The position numbers were made by a program, and so were the translations under genes. Under the pieces are notes generated by a model that was not told the DNA's origin, ran no database searches, and saw nothing but the letters and a program-made list of their open reading frames with translations. DNA of 64,000 nucleotides from Earliella scabrosa (Eukaryota > Basidiomycota > Agaricomycetes > Polyporales > Polyporaceae). The DNA is taken from assembly GCA_022605405.1 (NCBI GenBank), contig JABYQQ010000027.1, positions 186,001 through 250,000 on the forward strand, given 5' to 3'. This document shows positions 643 through 64,000 of this stretch, one piece after another. The stretch's first letter is position 1, and every line of letters begins with the position of its first letter.

Positions 643-1049
643 GGTGGGAGATTGTCGAGTTGTTGCCAAAGGCAAAAGTTGTGCCACTGGCAATTGAACG
701 ACCCTGGGTCCGCACCCTTAAGTCTGATGCCTGCTTTGTCAAATACTAGAACATCAAGCGTAGATAAGAGGAAACTCACGCCTCAAGGCATAGTCTGAAC
801 CCGATGGTAGTTTCGTTCGGAAGACCGCCGCCGCCGTTCCACTGCGTTCAAGCTGAGACGCCGAGTGACACGTGGCTCGGTTGTTGGGCACTAAGCGCGC
901 GCGATGAACTCGAGAGTGGAGGACCGTACTTGTCCTCTATCGATAATCGTGGATAGTCGTTACAGTAGTACACATGAAGCATTCCAAGAATGTCCTCCGA
1001 CCAAGGTCTAAGGTAGTAGTAGTAATACATACGACGGTCTGGCGCGTTC
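643..1049. other. intergenic, no gene seen
   Basis: About 400 nt between the F-box gene start and the reductase stop codon. It should hold the F-box promoter and the reductase 3' end. I see no RNA gene or repeat here. Confidence 0.5.
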
Positions 1050-3196
1050 TCAGATCGCGAACAGCTCCGTGTGCAGCGCGACCCCTCCAAGCTCGACGCC
1101 CCTCGTCAAGCTCACCCGCGCGACAGCATTGTGCGCCTCGCGCGTCAGCGACTCCGGGCCCGCCGCGCACACCGCAACTCCGCCCCCAAGGCCGACCCAT
1201 GCCAGCCGCGACAACGCGGGGAACTCTGGCGCGCTCTCGTCCGAGTCGATGGACTCGATCTCGGCGTCCGCGGCCTTCCCGGACGCAGCGACCGTCGCGG
1301 GCTGAGGTGGAGGAGTGACGAGGTCACGCAGGAGCCCGGTGACGGACGGGCGGGTCGCCACGATGACGTCCATGTTCGGGATTGGTGGTACGTCTTCGGG
1401 GTTGCACAGGCAGGTGACGTACACGGTGATGTGCAGGTCGAGCGAGGTGCCCGCGACGGCGTTTGCAATCTCCATGAGCATCGGTGCGAGCCAGTGGATA
1501 GCACCTGCAGGAGACGGTCAGCAGCACGGATCGGAGGGTGACATCGCAGCACGTACCATACGAACGGACACACCACGCGAACTCGATGCGCCGCGTCTTC
1601 TCCCCATGAGAGCGACCGAGCTTGACGCACCGTGCAACAATGTCGTCGAGCAGACCGAGGGTGAATGTAGCGCCAGACCCGCCCGCAACGAGGAGCGCAC
1701 TCTCGTACTCGCCGATGTCGACGCTCGAGCCGCCGTACGGACCGTCGATCATCACTTGGACGGGGACACCGGGCTGGTCGTCCTTCTCGGCACGCAGACG
1801 CTCCTGTTCCGCATGTGCGTAATTGTTGAGCGCGCGAGTCCAGTCGCCGACGGAGCGCGCGGCCAAGGTGATGGTGTTACCCGGGATGCATGACGACGAC
1901 GCGGGTGCGTTGACGATGGTAAGCGGGTGCGACTCGAAGATTCGACCTGAGAAGAACACCCGGAGGCGAACATGTTGACCAGCGACCCAGCCATCGTCGC
2001 AGTCATGAACGTGGATCTGAGACATTTCAGTACAATACCATCTAAACGAGGACCCGAAGGACATACCAGGGTCATTTGGTTGTCGACAGGGACGAGCGTT
2101 GCATCCTTGATACGGTAACGGAACAAACGGAGAAGCATGTCGAACCCGTAGAATGCCAACGGGGGGAAGATCCATGGAGAGGCGTAGATGGTGTGGTAGC
2201 AGATCGTCACGAAGAATGCAACGAAGCAGAGCACGCTGGAGCAGTTCGATGAGTATCGTGCAGAAGTACACTCAGACTGCGAGACTTACTGGATGACGAA
2301 GAACGCCTCGTAGAAGAACCGTCGGACCGGCCTGATCGAAGTGAGGATGATGATGCAGAGGAGAGCGTATGCGGCGATGCCGGATGTCTCCTTCTGCTCA
2401 CCAAGGATCTGGAGGTTGAAGGTGACATGGTTGTTGATCCACAGCGCGCCGTGCACGGTCGCGCCGATGAACATACCACGGCCCGCCCAACGGTGGACAT
2501 AGTTCAGCTTCTCGTAGCCCCTACCAGGACCGAGAAGCAGAGAGAGTATTGAGTTCTTGGTAGCAAATAGGAAGACGAGGGGAAATTGCGCAAGCGCAAG
2601 GAAGCCTTGGACATAATCAGTATCGGACTACAGTCCGAGGTTCTCGGAGACCAGGCTCACCAGCTCGGTTAGGGTTCTCGAGAAGAGGAGCCTGCATGGT
2701 CGTACAAGCGACGAAGAGCGCTAGGTACGCTGCGATGACCATCACTGCCGATTTGGATGAGTGGACGAACGGTCAGCAAGGTATCAGCGGAGACGTACTC
2801 TGGCCGACGTCTAACTCGACGCCCGGTAATGTCCACAGCGTCGACGACCAGAGAGTCTGCACCACACCTAAGACTCTCCGTCTTGACTTGGGCGGCGTCG
2901 CGTCCCCGCGCTCCGCAGCCGTGTATGACCTCCCGTCCTCGGTGACTCCGGTGATGAGACCGCGGAAGAGGCGGCGAGTCTTCAATGCCCTGGCGACATG
3001 GGGCACCGAGGCGAGGACAGCGATCGCGACTCCCGCCGCCCAAATAATGGAGAACTTGCGCTGCCACTTCGGATCTTCGACGTACGAGCTGAACGAACGG
3101 TCGTTAGCGGCAGCGAAGTCATGTATGAGACTTAGGCACTGACTTGTACTGCTGTAGCTCCGCCGGGATCACTGGGGGAGCTCCGAAGTCGGCCAT
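1050..3196 (-). CDS. ferric/cupric reductase (FRE family)
   Basis: Plasma-membrane metalloreductase that should pass electrons from NADPH through FAD and two haems to extracellular Fe(III) or Cu(II). The start chosen is the ATG at 3196 (MADFGAPPVIPAELQQY); upstream frames have only TTG/GTG. An N-terminal membrane segment (IIWAAGVAIAVLASV) precedes the ferric reductase transmembrane domain, with candidate haem histidines in LNYVHRWAGRG and GATVHGALWINNH. The FAD-binding part has the HPLTI motif, the NADPH part DGPYGG, and the protein ends in a typical HTELF tail. Introns are read near 3089-3143, 2790, 2650, 2280, 2050 and 1540. It lies 465 bp from and divergent to a Ctr copper transporter, which fits coupled reduction and uptake. 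Confidence 0.9.
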
Positions 3197-3661
3197 GATG
3201 CGAGCAGCTAGTCTCTCGGCGTTGAGGGAGACGTCGAGCTCGGCGTGAATAAGATCGAGGAGGTGAGAGGGGCGGGGGGTAGCGGCTAGGAGAGACTTTG
3301 AGTATCGGGGCTTGGGAACAGATATCGGAGCAGAGAGTTTTTCCTTCTTGTTTGGCGTAGCCAAATAGTGCGAAGAATGTTTTCACCACAACCCTTCAGG
3401 CAGGCGCTGACCGCGAGGGTCGGTCCTCCGCCACCTCCTCGCAGGATTGCCCTCCATCGTCCTTGGCTCTGCAGAAACGTTCATCCGATCGCGATGAGTT
3501 TTCAGGTTCAGGAGACGAGCGAGGGCCTGCGGGGGCCAGATTTCAGGCGAACCACACTTAAAACGGAGCGCTGAACTTCACGCCCATCGCCGTCGACCTC
3601 AGTCCGAGTCGCATCGTTCGCCTTCTTGACGCTCCTACTTTCCAGGCTGTCTCCTCACATC
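3197..3661. promoter_or_regulatory. shared divergent promoter region, reductase/CTR
   Basis: The 465 bp separate the two start codons of a metalloreductase (minus) and a copper transporter (plus), so both promoters must lie here. I looked for a Mac1-like TTTGCTC box and for HGATAR sites and found none. Co-regulation is therefore an inference from gene order only. Confidence 0.5.
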
Positions 3662-4565
3662 ATGGACCATATGTCACACGGTACCGGGACGGCCACGTCG
3701 TCTGCATCCACCGCAACGTCCACGGCGGCGATGAGCATGAGCATGGGCGGCTCGTGTAAGATTTCCGTAAGTGCCTCCATTCTATGCCGTCCACTTGCAA
3801 TCGCCCGTTCCCCATTCGGTCCATCTTCTTCCGGTACACACCGGCGTGGTGCGAGTGCGCATCCCACGCACGACAGGGCTGTCTGCCGTTTACTCAGCCG
3901 TTGTCGGAGTCGCCGTACATCGCATCAACCTTTAATACTCTAGTCGCATCCATATGCTAACTCATTCATTGCGGTAGATGCTATGGAACTGGTACACGGT
4001 CGACAGTTGCTTCATCGCGCGGTCGTGGCACGTCACGAGCAAGGGTGCCTTCGCGGGCTCCTGCATCGGCGTGATTCTTCTCGTCATGCTGCTCGAGCTC
4101 CTCCGCCGATCCCAGCGCGAGTTCGACCGCTATCTCCGCCGAGTGAACGGCGCCCCCACCGCCGACGGGAGCGACGCTGGGAGCAACAAGGGTCTCAACG
4201 CTGCAGTTCCGACGCTTGGACGCGGCTCAGGGGCGGGCCGGCTGAAGCTGTGGCAACAACTCGTTCGCGCCGCACTCTTCACCTGCCAGTTCGCCGTCGG
4301 CTACTTCGTCATGCTGCTCGCCATGTATTACAACGGTACGCGGCCGACATCGCCTCTGTACCGTGATCCTTGCCGGCTGACGTTTTTGGGCCAGGGTACA
4401 TCATCATCTGTATATTCCTGGGAGCCTTCCTTGGAGCGTCCGTCTTCCAGTGGGATACGTACTACACCGGTCACGGGTAAGCGACCTCATTTCTCTACTC
4501 ATCGCGACGCTATACTCATGAGATGACTTAGCGGTCCTGAGACCCGTGATTCATGTTGCAACTGA
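3662..4565 (+). CDS. Ctr-type high-affinity copper transporter
   Basis: Trimeric Cu(I) permease of the Ctr family, probably at the plasma membrane. The N-terminus is rich in Met and His (MDHMSHGTG, MSMSMGG), as expected of an extracellular copper-binding tail. TM1 follows WNWYTVDSC, TM2 carries the MxxxM selectivity motif (FVMLLAMYY), and TM3 carries GxxxG (GAFLGASVFQ). Introns: 3767-3977 (211 nt, unusually long here), 4336-4394 and 4477-4531. Without the last splice the protein would stop at TAA 4478; with it, the C-terminus becomes GPETRDSCCN, a Cys-Cys tail like those of other Ctr proteins, so I prefer the stop at 4563-4565. The neighbouring divergent ferric reductase could supply Cu(I). 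Confidence 0.9.
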
Positions 4566-5036
4566 TGACGACGTATCATCTTAGTAGGCTGGGCGTCGTT
4601 TCGACGAGTTAGTGTACTGGGATGGTTCTGTTACGAATTACTTTTACGCGTCTCTGTATGAACGTGCACAATCCACGAAACATATCATGCTTGCTTCCCT
4701 CAGTCGACTTCAGCGTAACGGACTCTTGTGAGCACGTTTGATGGCATAGGATAAACCTCGGTTGCGTGGCTTGTACAAGCGGACGGTGTGCTGCGAAGTA
4801 CTGCGCCAGGATCCTCAAATGATCGTAGTTGATCGTTCGTCGCGGCTCGTATGTTACCCCAAGCGCGTTGCATCTATATGATGAAGCCCCGATGAGTTCC
4901 CTTTGCGTTAGTCACCCTATGCGGCGAAACCTTGTTATCCATGCCAAGACCATACCGAACGCAAAAGCTAAAAGGCCGTTGCTCGCGAAGCCGGTCACCG
5001 CAACTCCCTCCTGCTCGATCTGCTACTTGTGCCATC
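4566..5036. other. intergenic, no gene seen
   Basis: About 470 nt between the CTR gene and the DJ-1/PfpI gene, tandem on the plus strand. It must contain the CTR 3' end and the next promoter. No RNA gene or repeat was recognised. Confidence 0.5.
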
Positions 5037-5847
5037 ATGGCCCGTCTTTCCTTCGGCCTCATCGCGTCCGCGTTGCTCCTCCCCGCACTCGCGATGGCAC
5101 AGACGAATCAGACCAGTAAGCACGAGCTCCCGCATCCACACCCACACCCACACCGTGACTGACCCCAATCCCGTCCTGGCAGCCCCGACAAAGTTCGGCA
5201 TCCTCCTCTTCCGGGGCTTCGAGCCGCTCGACGTCTTCGGCCCCGCCGAAGTCTTCCAAACGCTCTCGCGCACGACGCACCTCGACCTCTACCTGATCTC
5301 GAACCTGAACGGCACCTCCGACCTCGCGCCCGTGAGCACCGCGCCCGCCTCCGCGGCGATGAACCCGCACAACTCGACCTTCTTCCAGTCCGTGCTGCCC
5401 ACGCACACGCTCGACACCGTCCCCGCGGACCTCGAGGTGCTCCTCGTCCCCGGCGGGATCGGCACGCGCGCGCCCGTCGACCTCCTCCAGCCGACGATCG
5501 ACTTTGTGAGGGAGACGTACCCGAGGCTGCACTCGCTCATCACTGTGTGCACCGGCGCGAGCATTGCGGCGCGCGCGGGCGTGCTCGACGGGAAGCGGGC
5601 GACGGGGAACAAGAAGTCGTGGGAGTTTGTCACTTCGACGGGCCCGAACGTCAAGTGGGAGAAGGGCCCCCGCTGGGTCGTCGACGGGAACGTGTGGTCG
5701 TCTGGAGGGGTCAGTGCGGGCACCGACGCCGCGTTGGGATGGGTCGCGGCGCAGTATGGGGAGGACGTTGCACGGCGCACGGCGAACGACATCGAGTATG
5801 AGTGGAGGAACGACCCGAACTGGGATGTGTTCGCGTACGTCTGGTAG
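5037..5847 (+). CDS. secreted DJ-1/PfpI family protein
   Basis: Member of the DJ-1/PfpI (class I glutamine amidotransferase-like) superfamily, in the branch that includes isonitrile-hydratase-like proteins. Exon 1 (5037-5115) encodes a signal peptide (MARLSFGLIASALLLPALAM); one intron, 5116-5182, separates it from the domain. The nucleophile elbow reads TVCTGASIAAR, with Cys the expected catalytic residue, and the acidic partner is the Glu of FGPAEVF. The downstream SSGGVSAGTDAALGWVA block matches the family core. The protein ends at the domain boundary. Most DJ-1/PfpI members are cytosolic, so the leader is noteworthy. The substrate cannot be told from sequence. Confidence 0.88.
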
Positions 5848-5971
5848 ACGATACTTATGACTCTAGATCTACGTCTACGTCCGTGTCGTATGTACACCAC
5901 TAATGGCACTACGTGTCAGCGCTGGGAACCATTCACGAATACAAGTTAGAACGAACCATCATTTCCGAGTC

Positions 5972-6757
5972 TCAAGAAGGCGACGTATCTGCGCCATCGG
6001 TTCGCGGTTCACCTTCTTCCGAACTTCCTTGATTCGGACTCAGCTCCTCGCGCCTCAACACATCCCTCACCTCCATCAACGCCCTACCCAACAAATTCAG
6101 CCCCCACCCTTCCCTCCCCTCCTCGCTCTCGCACGTCTCCCCCGCCTTCCCCGCGCCCATCCCAATCCCCCAAATCCGATCCAGCGGACTCGCCTCCACA
6201 AGCTCCCTCTCGCCCGTCGCGAGCAGCTCGCGCCCCAACTCCGCGTGCTGCCGGAACTTGAGCAGGCTGCCCTCGCGCACGATCCGCTCGCGCTCGCGCA
6301 CCCACGTCTCCTCGTCGAAGCCCTGCACCTTCCGCCCGAGCGCCTTGACCCCCTTCGCGTTCGGCGCGCGGAATGCGGCCTTTGCGTTTGCTTGCAGCTG
6401 CTGTGCGTCCGCATCTTTGGAGGGGCGGGAGCGCGTATGCCGTATCGGGCCAGGCCCGCCGTCATTCGTAGTAGGCGCCGAGGACGTCGACGCAGCGTCA
6501 CTGGCAGTTGCAGAGTTTGAGCGTGGCTTGGAGGAGTGTGCGAGACCGACGATCCGCTGGAAGACGTCCTGATCGCCGAAGAGCAGCGCCTTCTGGCCCA
6601 TCATCCAGTGCTCTGCGGTCGGGAAGACGACTTCCTGCTCGTCGCCGTCGGGCAGCGTGATGCGTGCGGAGAAGGGGGAATGGTACCATTGCGAAGCCCA
6701 GCCGTACGGCTGCTCGGGCTTCCAGAAGAACACGAACTCTTCGGCGGTACGGGCCAT
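5972..6757 (-). CDS. NADAR/YbiA-like domain protein (DUF1768)
   Basis: Single-exon protein of about 260 residues whose two halves match the NADAR (YbiA-like) fold, a family linked to riboflavin-intermediate N-glycosidase activity and to ADP-ribose-related chemistry. Diagnostic blocks are FVFFWKPEQPYGWASQWY at the N-terminus, TAEHWMMGQKALLFGD, KALGRKVQGFD and LVEASPLDRIWGIGMG. Between the second and third blocks there is a 50-residue Ser/Thr/Asn-rich low-complexity insert (about residues 80-130) that bacterial members lack. An unspliced intron there is possible, though I see no convincing donor/acceptor pair. It is convergent with the DJ-1/PfpI gene, 124 bp away. Substrate unknown. Confidence 0.85.
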   Translation of the reverse strand: MARTAEEFVFFWKPEQPYGWASQWYHSPFSARITLPDGDEQEVVFPTAEHWMMGQKALLFGDQDVFQRIVGLAHSSKPRSNSATASDAASTSSAPTTNDGGPGPIRHTRSRPSKDADAQQLQANAKAAFRAPNAKGVKALGRKVQGFDEETWVRERERIVREGSLLKFRQHAELGRELLATGERELVEASPLDRIWGIGMGAGKAGETCESEEGREGWGLNLLGRALMEVRDVLRREELSPNQGSSEEGEPRTDGADTSPS

Positions 6758-7030
6758 CGTGATTGTAAGACGGACGGTGGTGGTGTGGTAAACGCGAGGA
6801 AGTAGGAATAGGGACGTGGTGGTCGTGTCATAAAGGGACTTAGTGCGTCGAGTCACAAGTCATTCGCGGTGTCCATGACATGCATGACAGCGACGGTGGC
6901 GCGCACGGCCTGTCGGTCCCGATCCCACATCATCTACAACGTCGCACATGGGCGGAACGTGGTCGTATTCGCATACACATCGGTCGTGAGTCAGTAGAGT
7001 CCAAGCGTCCGAGACAGTTACAACAATACG

Positions 7031-7761
7031 TCAGTGATGGCCAGCATGACCAGCGAACCTGCCGAACAGCGCCTCCCCAACACCCAAACCGACCACGATG
7101 GCGATGATGAACGAAACTTGGAAAGTCCTAAGACGGCATGGTGAGTTGACGGGGAAAAATGAGGAGATGATGTACGCGCGGACGTACATGACTATAAGCA
7201 TGAGGGCGAAGTGCAATGTGGCCTGAACGCCGTGCAGGATACCTCTCGGGATGTCGTGGGCAGCGATGAACGGCGGGCCGTTGCGCGTGAGGCCCGCACC
7301 ACGGATACGCCCTAAAGACAGCGCATTGGGCTTCTTGTCTGCGGTAGAGGCGTTGAGCCTGTCCGCTTGGATGATTTGCGCCCTGAAGTACTGTCAGCCG
7401 CGCAGCGAGACACGCGAGCGGGGCAAGGGAAGAGACGACGACGACATGCAAATAAGACGAACCTCTTAGCCCAGTGAGCCTCCATGACCGCCCGCGACGC
7501 AGCGATCCACCTATCCACTATTCCCAGTAGGAAAAGGCCTATACATGTCCCCACCATCGCGCCAACGCTGCGCGGGACCCATCCGTAGAACAGCAATACA
7601 TCTCCAGGAGTGAAGTGCAGCCACATGGTCATGCTGCCCGCGGCGAGGTCCATTGGGCCGTCCATGCTCATGTCCATGCCATTGCCGTGGTCGTGAGCGA
7701 GCGCCGTAGAAGAGAGCGCGAGGCTCACGACGAGAGGGAGCAGGGAGATCGATGGAGACAT
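7031..7761 (-). CDS. Ctr-type copper transporter, second copy
   Basis: Second Ctr-family protein, distinct from that at 3662. It starts at ATG 7761 with a cleavable-type signal (PLVVSLALSSTALA), followed by a short His/Met tail (HDHGNGMDMSMDGPMD). TM1 is near GAMVGTCIGLFLLGIV, TM2 contains MxxxM (ALMLIVMTF), and TM3 contains GLGVGEALFG. Two introns are read: one of about 80 nt after WAKR with a weak GTTCGT donor, and one of about 60 nt inside the ATG codon of IVM. The final residues are FAGHAGHH. The long hydrophilic loop between TM1 and TM2 recalls vacuolar or late-endosomal Ctr2-type proteins, but location is an inference. It is not adjacent to the reductase/CTR pair but lies in the same 7-kb block. 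Confidence 0.87.
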
Positions 7762-38425: not shown

Positions 38426-40483
38426 TCAAACGAGGCTACCTGACAAGCTCACGACGATAGCAACCAAGAGCGCATTACCGAGGAGACTGCTCCAGGGTCG
38501 TGCCCCAAGCGAAGCACTCGACGTCTGCCCTTCGCCAAGCTCCGAGCACGGGCTCCCCGACCCACCCAGCGCCGACGCGGGAAGCAAGATCTACGAGGAA
38601 GTGAGTTCAGCGCGCAGATCAGACGGACGCGAGCATCGCGCAAACATACCTGCGGATTCCCGCCAGAGCCTTGAACCGACACCCCGCCTTTCGAGTCCGC
38701 GCTGACTCTGGTGCAGGAAACGACGTCGACGAGCTCCTCGTTCGGCTCGTACCCAGCCTCGGGGACATCCCAACTGGGCGCGGACGAGCTGCCGCCGTTG
38801 GTGAGCAGAGCGAGCATGGGTGGCTTGGACACGACGATGGTGGAGGACGACGGGGTGAGTAGCTTTGCCTGAGTGTCGAGGCTAGTTAGCGATGGCCGGA
38901 TAGCTCGGGGAGGGGAAGAACATACGGGAGTGGTAAGGTACTGGCTGTTCGCTGCAATGGCCGCGCGACGCGCGCCATTGAACGTCTTGACGTGCTGCAC
39001 GAGAGGTTTGTCTTCGAAGTAGCTGGAGAGCCAGAGGCTGCGCGATCGTGTCAGGACAGATATCAATGGATTTCAATACGGAAGCGAACTCACGCCTCGC
39101 GGTTCGCGGGATCAGCACCCCCTTGGTAGCCTTGCTCTTGTCCTGGAGAAGTGCGCGTCAGTCTCGCGAGACACTATACCCTGAGTACATACGTACCGTA
39201 GTACAAGATAGGTATCCCATCTTGGACGAAGGGCCATGCAAACGCGTTCTTGACCAACTGAAATGTAGCAAGCACGAATGAGTGACTGTATGCGGCTAAA
39301 TGCCAATCCCGGGGAACTGGGGCTCACCGCGTCGTCCTGAGTCAGCGACTGGAAGCGCGGCTGGTCGTGATTGTCCAGGAACGACCCCTGCAACATCTCG
39401 CCTCCCTTGTACGCAGCTTGGCTCTCCTGCACGGTCGCCGCGAGCGCCGACAGGTTACCGCTCGTAGACTGGAAGGCGGAGACGAGCGAGAACCACGTCG
39501 GGTAGTCGAGCACGCTGTCGAGCACCTCTGCCAAGGAGTTCAACGCATATCTAAGCTGCGTGTATGCAGCTACTCACCTGTGTACGGCGCCACATAGCTG
39601 ACATCCTCGTGCAGAACCTCGCCGATGGTGAACACCCCAGCGGACTTTGCGAACTCGGGCCAGAAGTCCTTCCGCACATGCTTCACCGTGTCAATGCGAA
39701 CTCCATCCACGTTGTAATCGCTGACGAAAGCCCGTATCCAAGCATTCATCGTCTGCACAACGCCCTCGTCCTCGGTGTTGACGTCCGCAAGGGGCAGCTT
39801 CGCGTCCCCGAGCCAGCACTGTTCAACCTCGGTCTGATTGTCGTAGTCCGATATGAGGCACTCCGCGTGGAACTTGGACGGGTCGGAGAAGGGCGCGAAC
39901 TTGGAGTAGTCCGGGGGGTTCGTCGCCGAGACGAGGTGGTTCACGACGACGTCGACCATCAGGTACATCCCGCGCTCGTGCAGCGCCGCGCTGAGGGCCT
40001 TGAGGTCGTCCGCAGAGCCAAAGTGCGAATTGAGCGAGTTCATGTCTTCCGGCCAATATCTCCACGTCCGAGAACGGTCGGCTGGGGTCGGGGTGGAGAA
40101 GAATACAGCATAATACACTCACCCGTGGAAGGCCTCCCCATACTCTGTGCTCCCCTCGATGTTCGCCACGACGGGCGAGATCCAAATGGCATCGAAGCCC
40201 AGGTTCTGGATGTAGTCCAGCTTCGAGACGATCCCCTTCCACGTTCCACCGCAATACTTCCTCTCTGAAGTGTCGCACGAAGGCCCCGAGTCGTCCGACG
40301 TCGCGAAGCGGTCCGTTACCAGCTGCCGACCCCGACATCGACACCCCATGCTCAACGATACCGACATGAGCCAAATACAGCGACACGCACCTGATATATG
40401 GACCTGTTCCGCCACTCATCTGCGCTCGCTGAGAGGGTAGACGCGACCAAGAAAGACGCGAGAATCCAGGACTGCTTGAACAT
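38426..40483 (-). CDS. GPI-type alpha-amylase (GH13), copy 1
   Basis: Secreted endo-acting alpha-1,4-glucan hydrolase or transglycosylase of fungal GH13 type. It starts [19 protein letters not shown] at ATG 40483. Conserved regions: [35 protein letters not shown] with the nucleophile Asp; [10 protein letters not shown] with the acid Glu; and [11 protein letters not shown] with the transition-state Asp. Nine or so short introns interrupt it. The C-terminal exon (38426-38600) is Ser/Gly-rich and ends in a hydrophobic run ([16 protein letters not shown]), as in GPI-anchored fungal amylases such as Aspergillus Agt/AmyD types that act on cell-wall alpha-glucan. Starch digestion and wall remodelling are both possible. 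It is tandem with copy 2, 490 bp upstream. Confidence 0.9.
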
Positions 40484-40973
40484 GGATGGGCCTCAAGATT
40501 GGCAGGCTGTATGCGCGTTTAGTACGTCGCTCTGTCGTGTCGTTGAGTTGTTCAACGACGCAAGTTCAAGGAATGTGTCGCCCGATGTGGAGGCAAGCCA
40601 GTGTTCAGGGAGCGTTGGTGATGAGCAGACAGTGAATGGGGGAAGGAAATGGGCGGAATATGCGGCCTGTGCTGCCCACCTCTGGATTATATTCAGCCAT
40701 GTTGAGCGGCTGCAGCTGGCGAGGGACCGTGGTCGTCATAGCTGTGAAGAGAGGAGTCGGTAGTCGGAAGATCTGTGAAGGAGAAGACCTTTAGCGCCCG
40801 GGCGCTTCCCGTAGCTCGAGTCTCGAGAGGATAGAATGGAGAGCTAAGGATACAGACATGTGTTACAGTTACATGGAACGATGTAGAGCTACAAGGGTAC
40901 GTATACTAGGGTGAACTCATACTAAGTTAGTGATGTACGTTCGGGACGGAACGCGGGCCACTCCAGGGTAGTC
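40484..40973. other. gap between tandem amylases
   Basis: 490 nt containing the promoter of amylase copy 1 and the 3' end of copy 2. No other gene or repeat recognised. Confidence 0.45.
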
Positions 40974-43045
40974 TCAGCCGACGAGAGGACTAGACTGACT
41001 CGCGATGAAAGCCAGCGCAAGGGTGATCCCAATAGGCATGGCGTCCGCGACGATCTCACTAAACAGAGGCTGCGGCCGCGGCGAAGCTGACGACGCCTGG
41101 CCGCCTGCAACCGCCATGTTCGAGCACAGGCTCCCGGTCTGGCTCAGCGCCCATGTGGGCAGCAGGATCTGGTGTCAAGAGCTACATCAGCCTACGATGA
41201 TTGAACAGGCAGCAAGCGATGTCGGCACACCTGAGGATGACCTTGCACGCTATGGACCAGCACGCCGCCCTTCTTGTCCGCGACGACGGTCGAACAAGTG
41301 AGAACGTCGACGAGTTCTTGGTGCGCCCGGTACCCCGCGTCTGGCACGTTCCACGTCACGTCCGACGAGTTGCCGACGTTCGTGAGCAACGCGAGCATCG
41401 GCGGTTTCGACACCGCAAGCGTCGACGGAGTCACCGCATACAGCTTGGCCTGTAGATCAGGGCATCAGCATCATAGCATCATTCGACGAGGGACGACAGG
41501 GTGACAAACGGGAGTCGTGAGGTACTTGCTGTTCGCGGCGATTGAGGCACGGCGCGCCGCGTTCAGGATCTTGACGTGCGTCACAAGTGGTTTGTCTTGG
41601 TCGTAACCTGAGAGCCAGAGTCTACGTAGAAGCCATGATGAGTCCGAGCTATGGGTGTATAATAGCGTGTTGTACGTACGCTTCGCGATTGGCAGGGTCT
41701 AGACCGCCTTGATAGCCTTGCTCTTGACCTGCAGAATAGCGCACGTCAGCTGACGGAGGCAAAATGTGTCGCGTATACTCACCATAGTACAGGATGGGTA
41801 TACCATCCTGGACAAACGGCCACGCCATCGCATTCTTCACAAGCTACATCGTCTTGTGAGTGACTATATGCGTCCCAATCTCTGCGACAACGTACCGCCT
41901 CGTCACTCGTGAGCGACTGGAAGCGCGGCTGGTCGTGGTTCTCCAAGAACGAGCCCGTCATCATCTCCCCATTCTTGTAGGACGCCTGAGCCGCCCACAC
42001 GTTCCCCGCGAGTGCCGTGATGTTTCCGGCGGAGTTCTGGAACGCGGTGACCAACGTGGACCAGGTGGGATAGTCGAGCACGCTGTCGATGACCTCTGCG
42101 CGACGCGATAGATGAGTCGCCACCGCAATGGATGAAGAGTACTGAGAGCTTACCGGTGTAGGGCGCGACATAGCTCGTGTCGTTCTGCGAGATCTCCCCG
42201 AGGGTGAAGACCCCAGCGGACGCGGCGAACTCGGGCCAGAAATCCCGCCGTATGTGCTTGACCGTGTCGATGCGGACGCCGTCGATGCGGTACTCATGAA
42301 CCAGGTCGTGGATCCAAGCGTTCAAGGCCTTGACCACCTCGTCGTCCTCCGTGTTGAGATCCGCCAACGGGACGTTGGTGTCGCCGAGCCAGCACTGCTC
42401 GATTTCGGTCTGGTTGTTCCAGTCGGAAATAAAACACTCGTCATGGAACTGGGATTGGTCTGAGAAGGGCGCGAAGCTGGAGTAGTCTGGGGGATCGGAG
42501 GAGGAGACCATGTGGTTCACGACGACGTCGACCATGAGGTACATGCTGCGGTTGTGCAGGGCCGAGCTGAGGGCTTTGAGGTCGTCTTCGGTGCCAAAGT
42601 GCGAGTTGAGGGAGTTGATGTCCTGAGTCCAGTACCTACGGACCACGGTCGCTCGGCCAGAGATCTCGACCGTCCGAAACCTTTGTGTGAACTCACCCGT
42701 GAAATGCCTCGCCATACGACGTGTTCCCCTCGACATTGGCGACAACCGGCGAAATCCAGATGGCGTCAAAGCCCATGCTTTGGATGTAGTCGAGCTTCTT
42801 GATAATACCTTTCCATGTCCCACCACAGTACTGCCGGTCGGACGTGTCGCAGTGTGGACCCGAGGTGTCTGATGTTGCGAAGCGGTCCGTGACCAGCTGA
42901 GCGATTCTGAGGTCAATTACGGCGAGTGAATAGTAGGGTATGTCAAGCTCACCTGATAGACAGTTCTGTTCCGCCAGTCATCAGCCGACGCAGAGAAGGC
43001 AGACGTTGCTAAAAGCAACAGTACGGCGACTCGGAGAGCGAGCAT
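40974..43045 (-). CDS. GPI-type alpha-amylase (GH13), copy 2
   Basis: Tandem paralogue of the amylase at 38426, same strand and exon layout. The signal peptide is [19 protein letters not shown] from ATG 43045. Catalytic blocks: GVRIDTVKH (nucleophile Asp), [10 protein letters not shown] (acid Glu) and [11 protein letters not shown] (second Asp), with [13 protein letters not shown] as the region V-like segment. After the catalytic barrel a beta-domain ([19 protein letters not shown]) precedes a Ser-rich stalk and a hydrophobic GPI-type tail ([19 protein letters not shown], then SPLVG and stop at 40974-40976). It differs from copy 1 in its stalk, with [17 protein letters not shown] instead of the Gly/Ser-rich segment. 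All key residues are intact, so I expect an active enzyme. Confidence 0.9.
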
Positions 43046-43428
43046 GTCGAGGAAACGGCGACTGTCGGACCTGCCGGTGCGCCTCGCGTTTGTGAAAGGA
43101 TGTCGCGCGTCGGACACACGGAAGACGTATTGAGAGAACCGCGGCGCGCATGTTTGGACAAGTTGAACGTTTTGTCTGTCAGTCCAAGTGAAGGGAGTGG
43201 AAGAGCACGCGTGCCAGGCGGCCCGGGCCGACCAAGTCTCTCGATCTTAGATCGGCCTACGTAATCGGCATTCGGGCGCTTCGTACTCTGCGAAAATGTG
43301 CTGCAGCTTCGCGGATCCGTTCTCCCTCCTCGCCTCCACTGCTTTCAGTCTCGCCTTAATCCTCTGTTGCTCGTGCTTTACGACTACTCTCTGGTCTTGT
43401 ATCTACCCCAGGACCAGACGCGCCAAGT
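43046..43428. promoter_or_regulatory. divergent interval, amylase 2 / truncated REX1 copy
   Basis: 383 bp between divergent starts. The last 20 bases before ATG 43429 resemble the leader just before ATG 52877 of the full exonuclease gene, which indicates that the duplicated block included 5' flank. Confidence 0.5.
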
Positions 43429-44044
43429 ATGAAACGCCCTCAGATGTCCTCGCCTTCTACTCAGGACCCCCCTGACGCAGAGCCAAACAAACGACAAAAG
43501 GTCTCAGATCCCAACGCGCAAATAGACGATGACGGAGAAGGATGGCAGAAGGTTGAGAGGCGGAAGGCAAAGAAGCAGAAAAAGCAGGACACAAAGCTCG
43601 AGGTGCGTCTGCAGCCGCGCTGCATGTATCCTTCTTCCTCACGCCCACCATGCTGCAGGCCAATCCTCCAAAGTTCATGTACGCCAAGGGAGAGATACTG
43701 AAGCGACGCGAAGCAGTTGGTATTAACGTACGTTTCCTGGCGAATGTGCATCCTTGACATACTCATCATGTTCACAGGACGTACGAGAGTTGGTCTTGCA
43801 TCTCGTCGCCGACGCGCCCCCGCCGAGTTGGGTCAGAGTCGAGGTATGTATACTCTTCTATGAAAGACGCTGTACGACTGACGAGTCGTCCCAGAATCCA
43901 CGCTCCATCAACAAGGTCGTCGCGCTCCTCATACCCGGACTGACACCCGATATACTCTCACTACCTCCTCTACCCACCTCCGCCACCGCTGAAACGTTCG
44001 ATCAGCCTCCGGGATGGGTAGAGAGCAAGCTAGAGAGAGGGTGA
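43429..44044 (+). pseudogene. truncated duplicate of REX1-like exonuclease
   Basis: The first four exons copy the gene at 52877: DAEPNKRQKV, DGEGWQKVERRKAKKQKKQ, FMYAKGEILKRREAVG, DVRELVLHLVADAPPPSWVR and KVVALLIPGLTPDILSLPPL. After SATA the sequence jumps directly to ETFDQPPGWVE, which in the intact gene lies about 130 residues later, then ends at TGA 44042-44044. The deletion removed the linker but the frame stayed open. The whole DEDDh nuclease domain is absent. The copy therefore cannot be an exonuclease; it could still make a roughly 150-residue basic protein. Splice sites of the retained introns look intact. Confidence 0.82.
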
Positions 44045-44369
44045 AGAGTGGGAGCCCGCTCGAGATGGTATAAGCGCCCACTGACGACACTTGGGCCGGC
44101 GATACTCTTCAACGCCCAACACTCTCATCGACGACGAAAGTGTGTACTTCTCAACATGGACACGCCCGCACTGCCAGATACCTATCTCATCGCCAACGCG
44201 CGATACCTCGTGCAAGCCCTACCGGTCTTCAATATGTTCGCTTTTGCGCCGTTGCGTCTATGAGCGTCTGCGCTTGCACTTGAGGCTGATGACTGGCGGA
44301 ATAGAGCCATCCAACAGGTGCGTTTGCGACAATATCAGCCGTATCGGTTTAAGACCAACTGAAGGAGCG

Positions 44370-46140
44370 ATCTGCCATCCAGCTGCTCACGGATTGGATC
44401 AGACAACTGTGGGCCGCGCCGTGACATGTCTGATACTGTGGCGGAACATGGTGAAGCTCGACTACATACAGAGTTTGGGATATGACGCGATCTGGATGTC
44501 ATCGATTCATTGCTCGTCGCCAACGTCGAGGGGAACACGTCATATGGCGAGGCGTTTCATGGGTCTCGGGTATGAGTCCGGATATCCTACCTAGCGGCGG
44601 CAGTCACTGGCCCCTGTCAACTCCAACTTCAACACCGATGAGGACCTCACGGCTCTCAGTCCGGCCCTCCACAATCCTAGTATGTATTTCACACTCGTCG
44701 TCGTCGTCGTCAATCACATGGTCTCCTCTTCGGACCCTCCAGACTGCGTCAGCTAGCTCCCTTCTCTCATTCATCTAAATTTTACGACGAGTACTTCATT
44801 ACTGGAGCACCCGGACCGACGTCGAGCAGTGCAGGCTTGAGGACGTTTGGCGGACCTCAACAAGGGGGACAACGAAGTGATCAAGGCCTTGAACACCTGG
44901 GTGACGACCTGGTCCTCGACTACAAAGTTGATGGCATCCGGATCGCCACAGTCAAGCCCGTCCGGAGCAACGTTTGTCCCGACTTTGCCCAGTCTGCTGC
45001 GGTCTTCACTCTCGGGGAGATCTCGCAGAACGACACGAGCTACGTCGCTCCCTACACCCGTAAGCCCCTACCACTATATTGGTCTCCGTATCCCAGACAT
45101 TCACAGGGAACCTCACGGCGCTTGCGACGAACGTCTGGGTGACTCAAGAGTCTTGCAAGAACGGCGAGATGATGACCGGGTCGTTCCTGGAGAACCCAGC
45201 CGCGCTTTCAGTGGCTCACGAGCGACGAGGCGGTACGTGTTCACAGTGAGTGGAGCGCATACAGTCACTCATGAGGCTATGCAGCTCGTGAAGAACACGA
45301 TGACATGGCCGTTCGTCCAAGTTCAAGACGGCACTCCCTCCTGTAACATGGTCAGTATGTGCGATATGACTTGGCTATTATCTCTGACAGCGACGTCTTG
45401 AGATCAAGCTCCAGGATGTGGAGGCGGTTATGACCCCGCGAATCGCGAAGCGTGCGTACAGTGTGTCCATCGCGACTTATGACCTCCACTCACCACGGCT
45501 TCTAGACTCTGGCTCTCAGGATACACCGAATACAAGCCATTGTAACGCACGTCATGATTTTGGAGGAGGCGCGTCGTGCCGCTATCGCCGCGAACAGCAA
45601 GTACCTCACCACTTCGGTTTGTCGCCCATCATCGTCGCCCGCCACATGAAGACGCGCAGATGCCCCACAGCCTCAGTTGTATGCGGTGAGCCCGGCCGTC
45701 TCCAAGCCCCCGATGCTCGCATTGCTTGCCAACCGCGTCAGACGTTGGCGTGGAGTGGCCCGTCCTAGACGCCCCTTGCCGGGCGCGTCAGGACCTTATC
45801 GATCTTCTCACCTGCTCGACGGTGATCGCGCATTGGAAGGGTGGCGTACTGGCACATAGCGTTCGGGGCCATCCTCAGGTACGTCGTCGCCAGCTGGTGC
45901 GAGTTCAATGGCGGGCTGAGCGTGGTCCTAATATGTAGATCTTGCTGCCTGCGCCGGCATTCAGCCAAACCAGAAGCCTGTGCTCCAATATGGCGACAGC
46001 AGGCGGCCAGACGTCGTCCGCTTCTCCGCGACTACATCCTCTGGCCAGCGACATCATCGCAGATGTCATGCCCATTGGTATCGCCCTTGGGCTGGCTTTC
46101 ATCGCTAGTCATTCGAATCCCCTCGTCGGCTGGGGCTGTA
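44370..46140 (+). pseudogene. degenerate GH13 amylase, inverted copy
   Basis: Third amylase copy, opposite in orientation to the two intact ones. Fragments in order are YCGGTW (here CGGNMV-like), [48 protein letters not shown], a [16 protein letters not shown] stretch, [34 protein letters not shown] and, at the end, SNMATAGGQTSSASPRL with IADVMPIGIALGLAFIASHS. They lie in different frames with internal stops, the GVRIDTVKH block is scrambled (GIRIATVKP), and the stop after LVGW is lost. The C-terminal part is closest to copy 2. It is a clear pseudogene. Confidence 0.85.
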
Positions 46141-47005
46141 CTTCAAGCTGGCAGTGGTCCACATCCCATTCCATTTCTATTGAACGCACAGTCGTATTAT
46201 GAGTCAGCCTACTTGACGCACGCGTGTAGCTTCACTAGATAACCGATGTCTATTTCGTGATTCCTAACCAATCGGCGATCCGCAAGAGAAACAGGACATC
46301 TCGTACGGGGCGCAGGTATGCGAAGCCTGCTCGTCGCTCGACTCTAGTGCGACAGCCTTCCTCTGCCGTCTCTTCAACACTGGGCGCGGACTGCAAGGTA
46401 TATTATATCGAATCGCGCGAACGTGAGTGGTCATCTGGCGATTATTCTTGCAGAATCGACAATCGTGGTAGAATGTTACCTCGGTGAGTGCGGTATCTGT
46501 GTCGCGGTGGCGGCCCTGCGTGATACCTATTGTACCGTAACTTGTTGTGTTAGAATCCGTAGTTATCAATTGTGCATTACTTGATGGAAAGGGCGCGCGG
46601 CATGCACAGGTACCACATCTCAATGAACGGTGCCACTCGTATGCAGCGAGACAACGACATGCATGCGTCGAGTTCGCGTCTTCGCAAATGAACATCCAGA
46701 CGACCGTCGCCTCTCAGTATCACCCCGATTTCGCTGCGCCGCCGGGAGGGACGACTAGTCGTCATGTTTCACAGCCTCCCGCCCCAAGTCTGCCACATAC
46801 GGCGCTGAGCGTGCGAAGTGTCGTGCTGGCTTCTTCTGTCATGGAAAGATATATATTCACTGAACTCTCGGTGAGACTTGATATGAAGAGCTCCGCTCGA
46901 GTACTCATCTTACACAGTGATATAGCCACCCGACACATCATCTCCACACATACCCCCTGCACCTTTAACACACGTCTCCTACACCCATATCACCGTTGTT
47001 TCATC
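46141..47005. other. intergenic, no gene seen
   Basis: About 865 nt. A minus-strand ORF (46264-46695) of 143 residues has no recognisable domain and lacks protein-like composition. The last 150 nt form the promoter of the orphan gene at 47006. Confidence 0.45.
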
Positions 47006-58284: not shown

Positions 58285-59510
58285 ATGTCTCCGCCTTCGC
58301 AGGGATCTTCATCTCCTTCCTCGTACCTGGTCGGACTCCCGGAAGAGATCCAGCTAAGGATACTCATGTTTCTTCCTGTGGGAGATCTGACGAGATGCAA
58401 ACGGGTGCGAGTTATGCTCGAGTTATGCCAAGGTCGACTCTCGCTAACAGCTGTTGCAGGTTTGTCGTGCATTATCCTCCAAGATCGAAGACGACTTGCA
58501 GGTGCAGTACAAGATGGGACTTGAGCTCGCAGGGCTGATAGACGGTCCCGCTCGCGAGCCTCCCCTCTTAACCCGAGTGCACAATCTGCGCGGCTGGTCG
58601 GCACCCTGGACTGCAGGACTTTCTATTCAGAAGGTCATCCTACCTGGCAACTCTCTTTTCGTCAGCGTGTGGACCTGCACTGGATGCTACTTTCTATATG
58701 AGGAGACCCAGCAAACGGATGTCCCGGCTGTCCTGCGGCTACATAGACCCTCAAGTACCCCCTCCGATACTCTGAGTGGTGTATCGGATTTCTCGACGGT
58801 GCTCACGGCGTGGAGAGAAGTGATCCCTTCAATCGGGCGCATTCGTTCATGCTCTGTGAACCCGACAGAGGATATGGTAGTGATCACGAAGGGTACAGAC
58901 CCTGGAGAGTAGGTATCGATACTCGTTCTTAGCCGCTCACTTCGATGATTCATGGTTTTCAGGATCCCCCTGTGCGTTGTACTTTCAATCTCTGAAGACA
59001 TCACGCCCCATCCGTCAGCCACACAGTCTGTGTTCCGCGCATCTCACGGTTCAACCTGCGAGACCCACGACAGAATCGAGTCCGAAGGGGATCTGATGTC
59101 GTGGTCGATCCATCCCGCCCAATGGCCGTCGGATGAACCAAGCGAGATGCAGGTTATTAACTGGAAGACTGGTGCCGTGGTCTGGGTGAGTGTATCTCGC
59201 GCCGGTTCAATCATGCTGTCGACATCTCTGACGACAAGTATCCAGCGATATCTTGGAGATAGCTCGGCCAAATGCCACTTCATCGACTCTAGACACATCC
59301 TTGTCGTTGACCGTCACGGTCTCCACGTATACGCCTTTGACCCGCATACTTCTGCAGCAAAGCCGCCTCGGTGGGCAGCCACGGCTGATCGTCTGCTGCA
59401 CCTCGCATTTCCCGAACTAGCTGAAGGATCCCGACTCACCGAAGTTCAATGCTTTGTTCCTGGCCCCAGGTGGCTGTCCAATGACGACCCAGTCTTCCAA
59501 CCGGATCCTA

Positions 59511-59587
59511 CACCTGATTCCGAAATGAATGCCCGACGCGCGGAGTGTACCAAACTGCACGAGTTGACGCCGAACGCGCGTCAAGTG
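59511..59587 (+). repeat. left 77-bp terminal inverted repeat
   Basis: Identical over 77 bases to the reverse complement of 63644-63720. It contains no stop codon in the frame of the interrupted F-box gene. Confidence 0.97.
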
Positions 59588-59647
59588 CCAGCGTGCTTCC
59601 GCAATTGCTTTTGCATCTCTCCTACTTCGTTTACCTACCCTACTCTC

Positions 59648-60786
59648 ATGCCAAATCGAAAAATCGCCCCTGATATCAAAGAACGCGCCATATACTTGCT
59701 CTCCGCGGGATGGCAAGTCCACGACATCGTCGCTGCTCTCGGGGTCTCCAAGCGGAGTCTCGGTCGCTGGCAAGCAAGCTATGAACACCATGGACATCTC
59801 ACCACCAACACTTCGTTGTGCGGACGGCCCCAGAAGCTGGGTCCCAAGCTACTGGACGACCTACGCATGCTCTATGAAGAACGGCCCGGGATTTACCTAG
59901 GGGAAGTAGTTGAGTGGTTCGCCATACACCGTGATCTCCCCGTCTCCATCACCACAATCCACCGTGCGCTCGGCCGCCTCGGTCTCACCTACAAGAAGCT
60001 GCATCGAGCGGCTGTTGAGCGAGACGAGGTCTCCCGCAGGCAATGGATACAACACATCACCTCCCGGTTTGCCGCGAATCAGTTGGTCTTCGCCGACGAG
60101 TCCAGCAAGGATGACAGGACGATGCTCAGAAGATACGGACGTGCTCCGACAGGCCGTAGAGCAATGGACATATGGAGCACCAACCGTGGTGTTCGGTACA
60201 GCATCCTTCCCGCCCTCTCCCTCTCTGGAATCCTCACCGTGCGCGTCGTGCCGGGCTCAGTAGTTGGCACGATCTTCTTCGACTGGGTCGTGTCTGATTT
60301 GGTACGTCTCATGGTGCTATACGCTCCACTGTTGTCTTCGCTCACTGTCTTACACAGCTTCCGAAGATGAATCCATACCCTGGTCCGAACAGTGTCCTCA
60401 TCGTGGACAATTGCCGCACGCACAAGAGTGAGGCCCTTCGGGAGGTGATTGAAGCCGCAGGTATGTCTCCCAGCTGTCTCCCTTCCGCTAGCTCACGATG
60501 AATCACCTGCAGGCTGTCTCTATATCTTCCTTCCCCCGTATTCTCCTGATTTCAACCCGATCGAGGAGGCATTCAGCTGCTGTACGTAACGCTCCACATG
60601 TGGATAAGCAACCGTAACGTCATCATTGACGGGGTTCCTATTCTAGTGAAGTACTATCTTCGACGTCATGGAGAGAGGTTGCTGGGAAGTGGGACCCCAG
60701 AGGTGGACTTGATGGAGGCATGTGTGGCTGCCGTGACACCGGAGAAAGCGGCGACGTGGTATAGACATAGTGGATATGTTGTGTAG
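59648..60786 (+). CDS. Tc1/mariner-type DD34E transposase
   Basis: Cut-and-paste DDE transposase of the IS630-Tc1-mariner superfamily, about 320 residues. The ATG at 59648 gives MPNRKIAPDIKERAIYLLSA, with the first helix-turn-helix (VHDIVAALGVSKRSLGRWQ) and a second one (RPQKLGPKLLDDLRML, SITTIHRALGRLGLTYKKLH). Catalytic residues: Asp in LVFADESS, Asp in VLIVDNCRTHK, and Glu in SPDFNPIEEAFS, 34 residues apart for the last two. Introns: 60302-60357, about 60462-60513 and about 60582-60647; each keeps the frame. The C-terminus is TPEKAATWYRHSGYVV, stop 60784. No stop codon separates it from the upstream F-box exon. All catalytic residues are present, so activity is likely. Confidence 0.92.
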
Positions 60787-61137
60787 TCATGCCTTGTGGA
60801 CCCTGTGTTGGATCCCGCTCGTTCCGACCACGTGTGACATTAATAATGAGGTGTATATTAGCAAAACGAGCGGCGTAGCCTTGCGTCGTCAACCTGAGTA
60901 AGGACAGTGGGTAGCTAGGGATGTTTTGGGATTTGGGTGTAGCGAGTAGGGGACAGAGGGGGGAGGATGGGGAGGGGCCGTGATTACGAAGAGAATAGAG
61001 TAAAGGCATGTATCAACAGGAAGTCGTATACTAAATGATCATGTCGTCAGGCAGGAGGGACTTCAAAGGAAGCATACGGACGTAACAGCGTGATATGATA
61101 CATGAAACATACTCTCGGAAGAGGCAAGGCTCTGGCT
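60787..61137. other. convergent spacer inside the transposon
   Basis: 351 nt between the transposase stop and the stop of the accessory gene, presumably both 3' UTRs. No ORF or repeat recognised. Confidence 0.5.
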
Positions 61138-63546
61138 CTACTGACCGGGGTGATGCATTGGCTGAGCAGAAGGGTAAGCATTCTGAGGAGGCGCTGAGCC
61201 GGACGCTCCGGAATGATTAACGCCTCCGGCCGGTGGGTAGGAAACGTAGTACGCCTGGGGAACGGTAGACCAGGCAGTCGGAGGGGCAATATACCCTGCA
61301 GGAGCATGCGTGAACGCATGCATCATGTGTCCAGGTGGAGGCGCTGCCATCCACGGTGACGCCGCAGCGTGAGGAGCGGCCATCGCTTGAGGGATGGGCT
61401 GCACAGCTGCGAAGGGGGCAGGAGGTGGAGCCGGAGGTGGGAACGGATGTCCGGGAGGTGGGAAAGAAGGGGGTGGACCCGGAGGAGGTGCGTGATGGTT
61501 GACAAGAGCGGCAGGAACCTTGATCGTGCTCGCCGCGGAAAAGAAGCGACTACCGAGGGGAGGGCACTGGAAATTGATGTTCGGCATTCCCTAGCAAGCG
61601 TGTGGATGAGTACGGTTGAACATGGAGAAGGTTTGATGGGAGACTCACACTGAGGATTCCGTTCGCCCAGACCTTGAGCTTAGCGTTGTCGAGATCAAAG
61701 TGCCAATCCATGGGGCTATAGTGGAAGCACCGAATCCCAGGATGAAGTGCACAGCACCCAATCGGGTACGTCTCCTTGAGACGTTCCACGATCGGGGCGA
61801 GCGACTCATCGAGCGTTGGCTGGGAAAGCAGAGCAAGGGCGCAAAGTCAGAGGATGGTACTAACACGAATTATGATCGGAGTGGAGACATACCTTCTTTG
61901 ATCCTCCATCCCGCCTCGTGGAGCCCGGAACCAGGAACGAGGACATGCCATGCATGATACCTGGGGCTTCCATGGGAGCCGGAGGGGCGGATGACCCGGA
62001 GAAAGTGGTATACGGGCTAGTAGGAGTGACCCAAGGCTGGTTGTCGGGGTTCGTCAGTAAGGATCGCATGCTTCCAAGTTATGAGACGCATGTAATAATG
62101 CACACACCGGATACTGAGATGGGAATGCTGACAGCGGTTGAGCCATGCTGATGAGAATGATCTCATTACCCGAGAGTGAACCGCCTTTGGCAGCTTTACG
62201 GATCGACTCCATCAGCACGGCGAAAGCGGCGGCATCCTTCAAAGGAAGCCACTGCACACCCGTCTTTGCTCCCCTTGGTCGGTTCGGACTAGTGATGTCC
62301 CACGTCCACCGTAGTGACGGTACCACGATGTTCTCCGGCTCGGTTCTTACCGTTCTCGCCATCTCCTTGACTGTCTTGTTCCAAGAGGTGCGGTTGTCGA
62401 TCTGGAATGGGCCGTACTGGATAGGTGGCTGGGCGACAATCTTGGCAGTTCCCCTAGCCGTCGTGGGCTGCACTAGCTTGGCTGGGAGCTCGATGTTGAC
62501 GAACGCTGCCACGGTGAAACTCAACTCGCCGTCTGCGCTCCGTGCGGCATCTGCCTGAAGCGTGGAGATAGGCGTCTTCTTCGGCACGGAACGCCCACTG
62601 CTGGCATGCTTGCGCTTCTTTGTCGTGTTGTCGGCTTCTTGTGGCACTACCGCCTCGTCCTCGGAGCTTTCCTCTTCCTCTTCCTCTGGCTCAGGCTCAG
62701 GCTGCGCCTTCTGCTTCCCTTTCGCATTCTCAGCTGAAAGCCGCGCCCGCTTTTTGGCTGGTTTGGCTGGTTTGGCTGGCTCCTGTCCCATGACGACATG
62801 AACATTCCAAGTTGCCAGTGCAGTACAGTGACGCCTGGTTCACGTACCTGCACGACGCCCTCAGCTTGCTTGGCCCCTCCAAGGACAGTCTGAGGCGACA
62901 GCTTGAGGATAACCTTGGGTAGCTTAACGTTGGCTGAAGTATCTCAGTGAGTGACCATCAACTTCGACCGATGAGGATCTGTTCCGCTCAACGTACCCGA
63001 AGCAGCCTTGACAGGTGTACCACTGTCCTCCACTCTGCCTTGAACCTCTGCGAAGATGCCCTCTGCTCCATCATCCAAATCCTCGTCCTCGCTCGAGATG
63101 GTGGACCACTGGGCGTTGACCAACTTGCCATAGTGTCCCAACTCTTGCTCGGATGGCATGGACTCGGCATCATCGTCGGAACCCTGCTCGTCCTCGAAGC
63201 CCTGCTTGTCCTCGGACTCGGAGCCCTGCTTGTCCTCGGAGCCCTGCTCGTCCTCGAAGCCGTCGCCGTTGCTGCTTGCAGCCACTCTGTCCTCGAGGTC
63301 AGCGATGACGGACGCCGATGGTGTTGCTACATCAGCCAGCCACCCTTGACACCGCTCCTGGAACTCATACCGCCGGTCAACAACAGAGGAGGCGTACTTG
63401 TCAACGCCATCGATGGACCAGGTGTGAATAGAGAGATTGTCGAGGAGTACAGCGTCGCACTCTGCAATCATCTCCTTCGACGCCTCTCTGCTGGCCGCCA
63501 TCATCTGCTCGATGTCCTCGGCCGTGTAGTGGACAAACTGCGCCAT
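61138..63546 (-). CDS. transposon accessory protein, unknown function
   Basis: Multi-exon gene within the element, about 640 residues; I recognise no family. It starts MAQFVHYTAEDIEQMMAASR at 63546. Exon 1 ends in an acidic Asp/Glu/Gly/Ser repeat (units like EDKQGSE and EDEQGSD). Next come NVKLPKVILKLSPQTVLGG, a basic segment (KPAKKRARLSAENAKGKQK) and an acidic one, then KKRKHASSGRSVPKKTP, both possible nuclear localisation signals. The conserved-looking core is NRTSWNKTVKEMARTVRTEP, LRWTWDITSPNRPRGAKTG and VQWLPLKDAAAFAVLMESI, followed by PIVERLKETYPIGCCALHPG and DLDNAKLKVWANGI. The tail is Pro/Ala/His-rich and ends QPMHHPGQ. Five introns of 55-75 nt have good splice sites. It may bind DNA or assist transposition, but that is inference from location and composition. 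Confidence 0.7.
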
Positions 63547-63643
63547 GGAGGGAGATCGGTAGAGTACGGGTGTGGTGTACAGTAGTGGTAGAGAAAGAAA
63601 CGAGGCCCTCAGAATATTTCTCAAATTTTTCTGCCTTTCGTGT

Positions 63644-63720
63644 CACTTGACGCGCGTTCGGCGTCAACTCGTGCAGTTTGGTACACTCCGCGCGTCGGGC
63701 ATTCATTTCGGAATCAGGTG
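63644..63720 (-). repeat. right 77-bp terminal inverted repeat
   Basis: Exact inverse of the left repeat. It lies 97 bp upstream of the accessory gene start. The TA duplicate follows at 63721-63722. Confidence 0.97.
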
Positions 63721-64000
63721 TAGCCTCGCGGTCTGGGCAATCAAGCTCGACGTGCGAGCACGCTCTGGTCATACTGAACATCTTCTTGTGGTCATCCCTC
63801 TGCGAACCGTCTTCACCGCACTCGAACTCCTCAATTCCGCAACCTCGGATGATTCCGGGAACGACGGCACCGTAAAGCGTTGGGAGGAATGGGGCCCGAG
63901 TGGCACACTCCTACTCAAGCTAGAATGTGAGCCACATATCGTGACCATCATGGGCTCGCGCGTGGCCATTCCTATCCCTCTCAACCAGTTTATCTCGATC

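Follow-up and report, generated by a model that had tools for sequence, protein, structure and literature searches.

Tc1/mariner elements are commonly cited as transposons for which their own transposase suffices, and for this reason they are used as gene-transfer tools in many organisms. DNA transposons typically carry a transposase gene between their repeats, and additional open reading frames can occur, as described in PMC7325037. TA-flanked Mariner units with extra genes, namely Fanzor1, nucleases or methyltransferases, are described by Bao and Jurka (2013; PMC3627910). In Harbinger elements, the second protein is Myb-like; it is described to bind both the transposase and the repeats, to allow the two proteins to enter the nucleus together, and to evolve far more rapidly than the transposase (PMC9179366). 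In MuDR, the transposase gene mudrA is accompanied in one element by mudrB, a gene of unknown function which, in the account of PMC3276141, is confined to Zea. Here we analyzed a stretch of 64,000 nucleotides from the fungus Earliella scabrosa (assembly GCA_022605405.1, contig JABYQQ010000027.1, positions 186,001 to 250,000 of the forward strand; hereafter the window). At window positions 59511-63720 lies a unit of 4,210 bp, one TA-flanked element with two genes, encoding a transposase and an accessory protein (acc1). The initial annotation of this unit had stated that Tc1/mariner elements usually encode only the transposase. This statement describes the typical case and is not an absolute rule, because Fanzor1, nuclease and methyltransferase genes are known in Mariner elements (PMC3627910). 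Similar accessory sequence occurs, again tail to tail with the transposase gene, in three related transposons of this genome, so that the second gene looks like an inherited, functional component more than a stray passenger. We estimate a probability of about 0.7 that the unit represents a fungal Tc1/mariner lineage in which a transposase gene and an accessory gene have been carried together, tail to tail, for a long time.

The unit is bounded by terminal inverted repeats of 77 bp (left, 59511-59587 on the + strand; right, 63644-63720 on the - strand), which are identical at 77 of 77 bases, and inspection found a TA target-site duplication directly outside them (59509-59510 and 63721-63722). 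The perfect repeats and the TA at both edges claimed in the initial annotation were thus recovered. An inverted-repeat scan of the unit returned arms of 83 nucleotides at 99% identity, the difference from 77 bp arising because the scan counts three positions past each repeat end. The next inverted-repeat pairs inside the unit are at most 24 nucleotides long and imperfect, leaving a single long pair. The outer 25 bases of the repeat, with up to three mismatches, occur at only two places in the window, which are the two ends of the unit, and none of 100 shuffles gave a match.

The exon models of both genes in the unit were derived from the sequence alone. The transposase gene (59648-60786, + strand) has four exons that encode 321 amino acids without internal stops. 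Exon 1 (59648-60301) contains the helix-turn-helix (HTH) region and the first catalytic D, exon 2 (60358-60460) the second D, exon 3 (60513-60581) the catalytic E, and exon 4 (60647-60786) ends with the stop codon; the three introns follow the GT..AG rule (60302-60357, 56 nucleotides; 60461-60512, 52 nucleotides; 60582-60646, 65 nucleotides). The protein matches the Pfam families DDE_3 (E = 1.8e-27, 96.5 bits, cut-off 28.6) and HTH_23 (E = 7.8e-7, 29.2 bits, cut-off 24.6), and the spacing between the second D and the E is 34 residues, in agreement with the DD34E transposase that had been annotated. A sequence search of solved structures with the transposase gave two weak matches (best E = 0.083), neither of them usable, and scans of viral contigs found no relatives of the transposase or of acc1. 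The TA duplication, the terminal inverted repeats, and the HTH and DDE_3 domains with DD34E spacing are shared with Tc1/mariner DD34E elements and place the unit in the IS630-Tc1-mariner group. We read it as a cut-and-paste transposon of the Tc1/mariner superfamily that looks intact and is present in a single copy.

The genome searched comprises 51.7 Mb in 48 contigs, and all copy counts are lower bounds. Searching it with the 77-bp repeat and both proteins, as the initial annotation had proposed, gave no second repeat-bounded copy; through the transposase, it did reveal related two-gene loci. Among the six DDE_3 loci in the genome, four belong to the two-gene lineage and two fall outside it. 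At each of the four lineage transposase loci found, accessory sequence lies on the opposite strand, tail to tail, with stop-to-stop gaps of 351 nucleotides in the window, 71 at C8:469637-472795, 53 on C1 and 66 at C8:1396-1400 kb. Of the three relatives, two have TA-flanked repeats of their own, and two are in a decayed state. Identity with the transposase of the window is 39% and 34% (E = 2e-67 and 1e-29) for the two relative transposases that are better preserved.

The relative at C8:469637-472795 has TA flanks and terminal repeats of about 96 bp, which agree at 96% over an alignment of 97 positions that includes the A of the TA. Its transposase gene contains two introns and one in-frame stop. 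Its second gene, acc2, lies on the opposite strand and has four introns of 51-53 nucleotides and an open frame of 489 amino acids; an alternative splice site for the second intron was rejected as it broke the frame. The relative at C1:3540381-3554447, with TA flanks and 87-bp repeats that are 98% alike, extends over 14 kb owing to other sequence nested within its bounds. Its transposase is split, and its accessory gene, acc3, is also interrupted by other sequence, so that acc3 is readable exon by exon, with frame breaks and a tail beyond the nested stretch. The frames nested within acc3 (about positions 167-3600 of the local piece) look by eye like a non-long-terminal-repeat (non-LTR) reverse transcriptase, and a short sequence recurs at each edge of the nested stretch. 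At the third relative (C8:1396-1400 kb), transposase pieces are on the - strand and an accessory tail is on the + strand, 66 nucleotides from the transposase stop. Further accessory pieces nearby, at C8:1368892-1369056 and 1385496-1385591, may belong to the same exploded element.

Two smaller pieces were also found. An old fragment of the family of the acc2 element, at C30:281360-282304, retains the start of the accessory gene and a repeat; within the 25 kb around it, just a single weak transposase match (E = 0.08) was found, at a distance of about 11 kb. At C14:1275909-1275951, a 43-bp piece of the C8-family repeat (91%) stands alone and may be a leftover or a short non-autonomous copy. Near the inner end of the 77-bp repeat of the window unit (59564-59584) there is a 7-bp inverted repeat with a 7-nucleotide spacer. 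Short palindromes occur also in the C1-family repeat, and none in the C8-family repeat; palindromes in two of three repeats are a weak signal, because 4-6% of repeat shuffles hold one.

The presence of other sequence within the C1 relative would also fit a composite structure, in which two unrelated elements overlap by chance and the accessory gene derives from another transposon. In the window unit, however, a single long inverted-repeat pair is accompanied by an exact duplication of the TA, and other elements show this arrangement again. We consider a composite extremely improbable and rejected it.

The accessory gene acc1 runs from 63546 to 61138 on the - strand, convergent with the transposase gene, and has six exons that encode 692 amino acids without internal stops. 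The convergent multi-exon gene reported in the initial annotation is thus real at the level of the gene model and lies wholly within the 4,210 bp of the unit. Exon 1 (62997-63546) holds the start and encodes an acidic, low-complexity region. It is followed by exon 2 (62848-62933), exon 3 (62108-62782; basic K/R-rich stretches and then domain A), exon 4 (61893-62036; a linker), exon 5 (61649-61819; most of domain B, between two phase-0 introns) and exon 6 (61138-61590; the end of domain B, a proline-rich tail and the stop). The introns are of 63, 65, 71, 73 and 58 nucleotides; a variant with a third intron of 37 nucleotides was rejected as it breaks the frame. Third-position GC is equal in the two genes of the unit (0.65 and 0.65). 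A Pfam scan of acc1 gave zero matches above the curated cut-off. The protein has long acidic stretches, and by eye we take some of its basic runs to resemble nuclear localization signals.

The three accessory proteins acc1, acc2 and acc3 are probably homologous and of one shared origin, as judged from their sequences and exon structure. Between acc2 and acc3, the C-terminal segment aligns with a score that none of 2000 shuffles reached, domain A and domain B give P = 0.015 and P = 0.012, respectively, and the introns lie in corresponding places by hand comparison. The acc1 protein does not have this C-terminal segment and ends in the proline-rich stretch, and its relationship with the other two is seen in domain B and in the intron phases. 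Scores as high as that of acc1 domain B were reached by 0 of 2000 shuffles with acc2 and by 1 of 2000 with acc3. When 3,043 decoy windows taken from the genome's other frames were used instead, 0 scored as high with acc2, 1 with acc3, and 0 by the summed score. Along the 692 amino acids of acc1, the domain-B windows with the five highest scores start at residues 478-490, and the domain-B exon starts at residue 486. The last three introns are in phase 0 in both acc1 and acc2, and in all three proteins 11 residues, by hand count, extend from the last intron through a PP pair. The intron phases of acc3 read 1, 2, 0, 0, 0 only if each exon is taken in its own frame, by hand. Pfam scans of acc2 and of two acc3 pieces gave zero matches above the cut-off, and a search of solved structures with acc2 gave 17 weak matches, the best of them to designed proteins (E = 0.0019) and none usable. 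Similar uncharacterized proteins are, we presume, common in mushrooms, which serves as a lead and not as a test.

Several observations weigh against an old two-gene lineage with homologous accessory proteins. The plain local alignment of acc1 and acc2 scores 45, against 37 ± 5.7 (maximum 71) among 500 shuffles, and is not significant. Domain A of acc1 is unsupported against its relatives (P = 0.49 and 0.16), and its predicted structure is poor, with a predicted local distance difference test (pLDDT) value of 43.8. The limits of domain B were set by eye before testing. The raw cumulative intron phases of acc3 (1, 2, 1, 1, 2) differ from those of the other genes, and the SAM-like label of the C-terminal segment of acc2 and acc3 was given by eye, without Pfam support. 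Among the relatives, an open accessory frame is found only in the element with acc2, in which the transposase carries the stop and its second D is separated from the E by 35 residues instead of 34. No repeats were found at C8:1396-1400 kb in a search with the C1-type repeat, and assigning a piece 27 kb away to this locus is a guess. The evidence for the lineage also comes from one genome. Within this one genome, the inheritance of the second gene by the lineage appears well supported by the sequence comparisons.

The initial annotation offered two readings of the second gene, a two-gene lineage or a recent capture of a host gene. In the latter, a host gene would have been picked up once and would have no function for the transposon. 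The exact repeat and acc1 were each found once in the genome, in line with a single event: the 77-bp repeat is present in at least two places, which are both ends of the unit, and no further copy was found, so no second copy bounded by this repeat is available for comparison. The lack of a significant plain alignment between acc1 and acc2 points in the same direction. A host copy, however, was not found. The acc1 protein matches only itself in the genome at E values up to 1e-3, as does domain B at E values up to 10, and therefore no candidate source gene for capture emerged. In addition, accessory sequence with the same orientation is present at three related loci and, at two of these, lies between repeats of their own, and domain B and the intron phases agree with those of the relatives. 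These results largely refute the one-off capture, which we regard as very unlikely and rejected in view of the related two-gene loci, and they favor the two-gene lineage.

The insertion site bears on when the unit moved. When the flanks were joined keeping one TA, frame 0 proved free of stops across all 280 codons tested, which reach from the stop that precedes it (58948) to the window's end, whereas frames 1 and 2 had several stops. The element would therefore have entered a long open frame exactly at a TA, and the interrupted host frame is probably coding. The identity of the repeats at 77 of 77 positions, the two open genes and the open joined flanks are consistent with a recent move of the unit, which accords with the earlier proposal that the whole unit moved together lately. 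Nor does any stop interrupt the host frame on its way across the left repeat and into the transposase gene (58949-60370), and a host-transposase fusion transcript is possible.

Given a two-gene lineage, our best reading is the one that the initial annotation had put forward, in which the second protein would help or regulate transposition. The accessory protein could be a nuclear partner of the transposase that acts via protein-protein contacts, and it might help to recruit the transposase to the repeats or to form the assembly of both ends, like the Myb-like protein of Harbinger. The basic K/R-rich stretches, the acidic linkers and the C-terminal segment that is SAM-like by eye in the sister elements point toward such a role. 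From these features and the analogy with Harbinger, we put the chances of a helper role in transposition at about even. The stronger proposal of a distinct fungal Tc1/mariner branch that is a true two-component system, with a rapidly evolving partner without a known domain that is inherited along with the transposase and is required by it or controls it, is tentative and falls somewhat short of even odds. The acidic and basic low-complexity regions would also suit a chromatin factor, and maize MuDR likewise combines mudrA with mudrB, the function of whose product is unknown (PMC3276141). It is possible on these grounds that the accessory protein is a regulator or an anti-silencing factor and not a direct partner in transposition, but we found no sequence feature specific to silencing and no Pfam domain above the cut-off, and we consider this rather doubtful. 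The tails of the accessory proteins differ, being proline-rich in acc1 and SAM-like by eye in acc2 and acc3. Together with the kept association and the weakly conserved sequence, such tails would also fit an arms-race gene. Such a gene would be a long-inherited passenger whose targets are the host or competing elements, with no part in transposition. No Pfam domain above the cut-off suggests a toxin, a defence protein or an enzyme, however, and the presence of both genes together at all four loci found would be more readily understood if the element depends on the pair. We thus regard a passenger of this kind as unlikely.

The two DDE_3 loci outside the lineage provide a contrast. The Tc1-like element at C1:2852747 (C1:2851955-2853576; 1,622 bp) has perfect repeats of 215 bp and an open transposase frame, with room for a transposase only, and its transposase is 21-25% identical and falls outside the lineage. 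At C5:1404597, a frame of 849 amino acids matches DDE_3 at 24.4 bits, below the cut-off of 28.6; it is enclosed by 31-bp repeats (94%; positions 4134-7195 of the local piece) and looks like another type of DNA transposon. Elsewhere in the window, at 39000-46200, there are several direct and inverted copies, about 71-92% alike, of gene-sized stretches, and one peptide encoded there is, we presume from its appearance, amylase-like.

Compared with known systems, the lineage of the window unit differs from typical Tc1/mariner elements in the recurrence of a second, multi-exon gene. Ant1 of Aspergillus niger is a fungal Tc1/mariner-type element that contains a piece of a host amylase gene. Ant1 and the window unit are thus alike in being fungal Tc1/mariner-type elements with extra gene sequence, but Ant1 carries a piece of a host gene, whereas no host source of acc1 was found in this genome. 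MuDR likewise has two convergent genes, and it belongs to the Mutator superfamily, with longer repeats and target duplication. Like MuDR, the window unit combines its transposase gene with another gene whose function is unknown (PMC3276141), and it differs from Mutator-like elements in its DDE_3 transposase and TA duplication. The Fanzor-bearing Mariner units are similarly TA-flanked with extra genes, but their extras, as described, are Fanzor1, nucleases and methyltransferases (PMC3627910); acc1, acc2 and the two acc3 pieces gave no Pfam match above the cut-off, with no dedicated Fanzor model used. Among the matches listed in the open-licence PMC literature, there was no report of this lineage, nor of a second gene with no recognized domain that is inherited across diverged fungal elements. 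If a second protein has been kept over long divergence, the question arises what these elements gained by giving up self-sufficiency, and the window copy, with both frames open and identical repeats, could therefore serve directly to test it. By analogy, Harbinger is the closest precedent in behavior for the second protein. Both are two-gene DNA transposons with a fast-diverging second protein (PMC9179366), but Harbinger belongs to another transposase superfamily, whereas the window transposase is of the DDE_3 type and the accessory proteins have no Myb/SANT match in Pfam.

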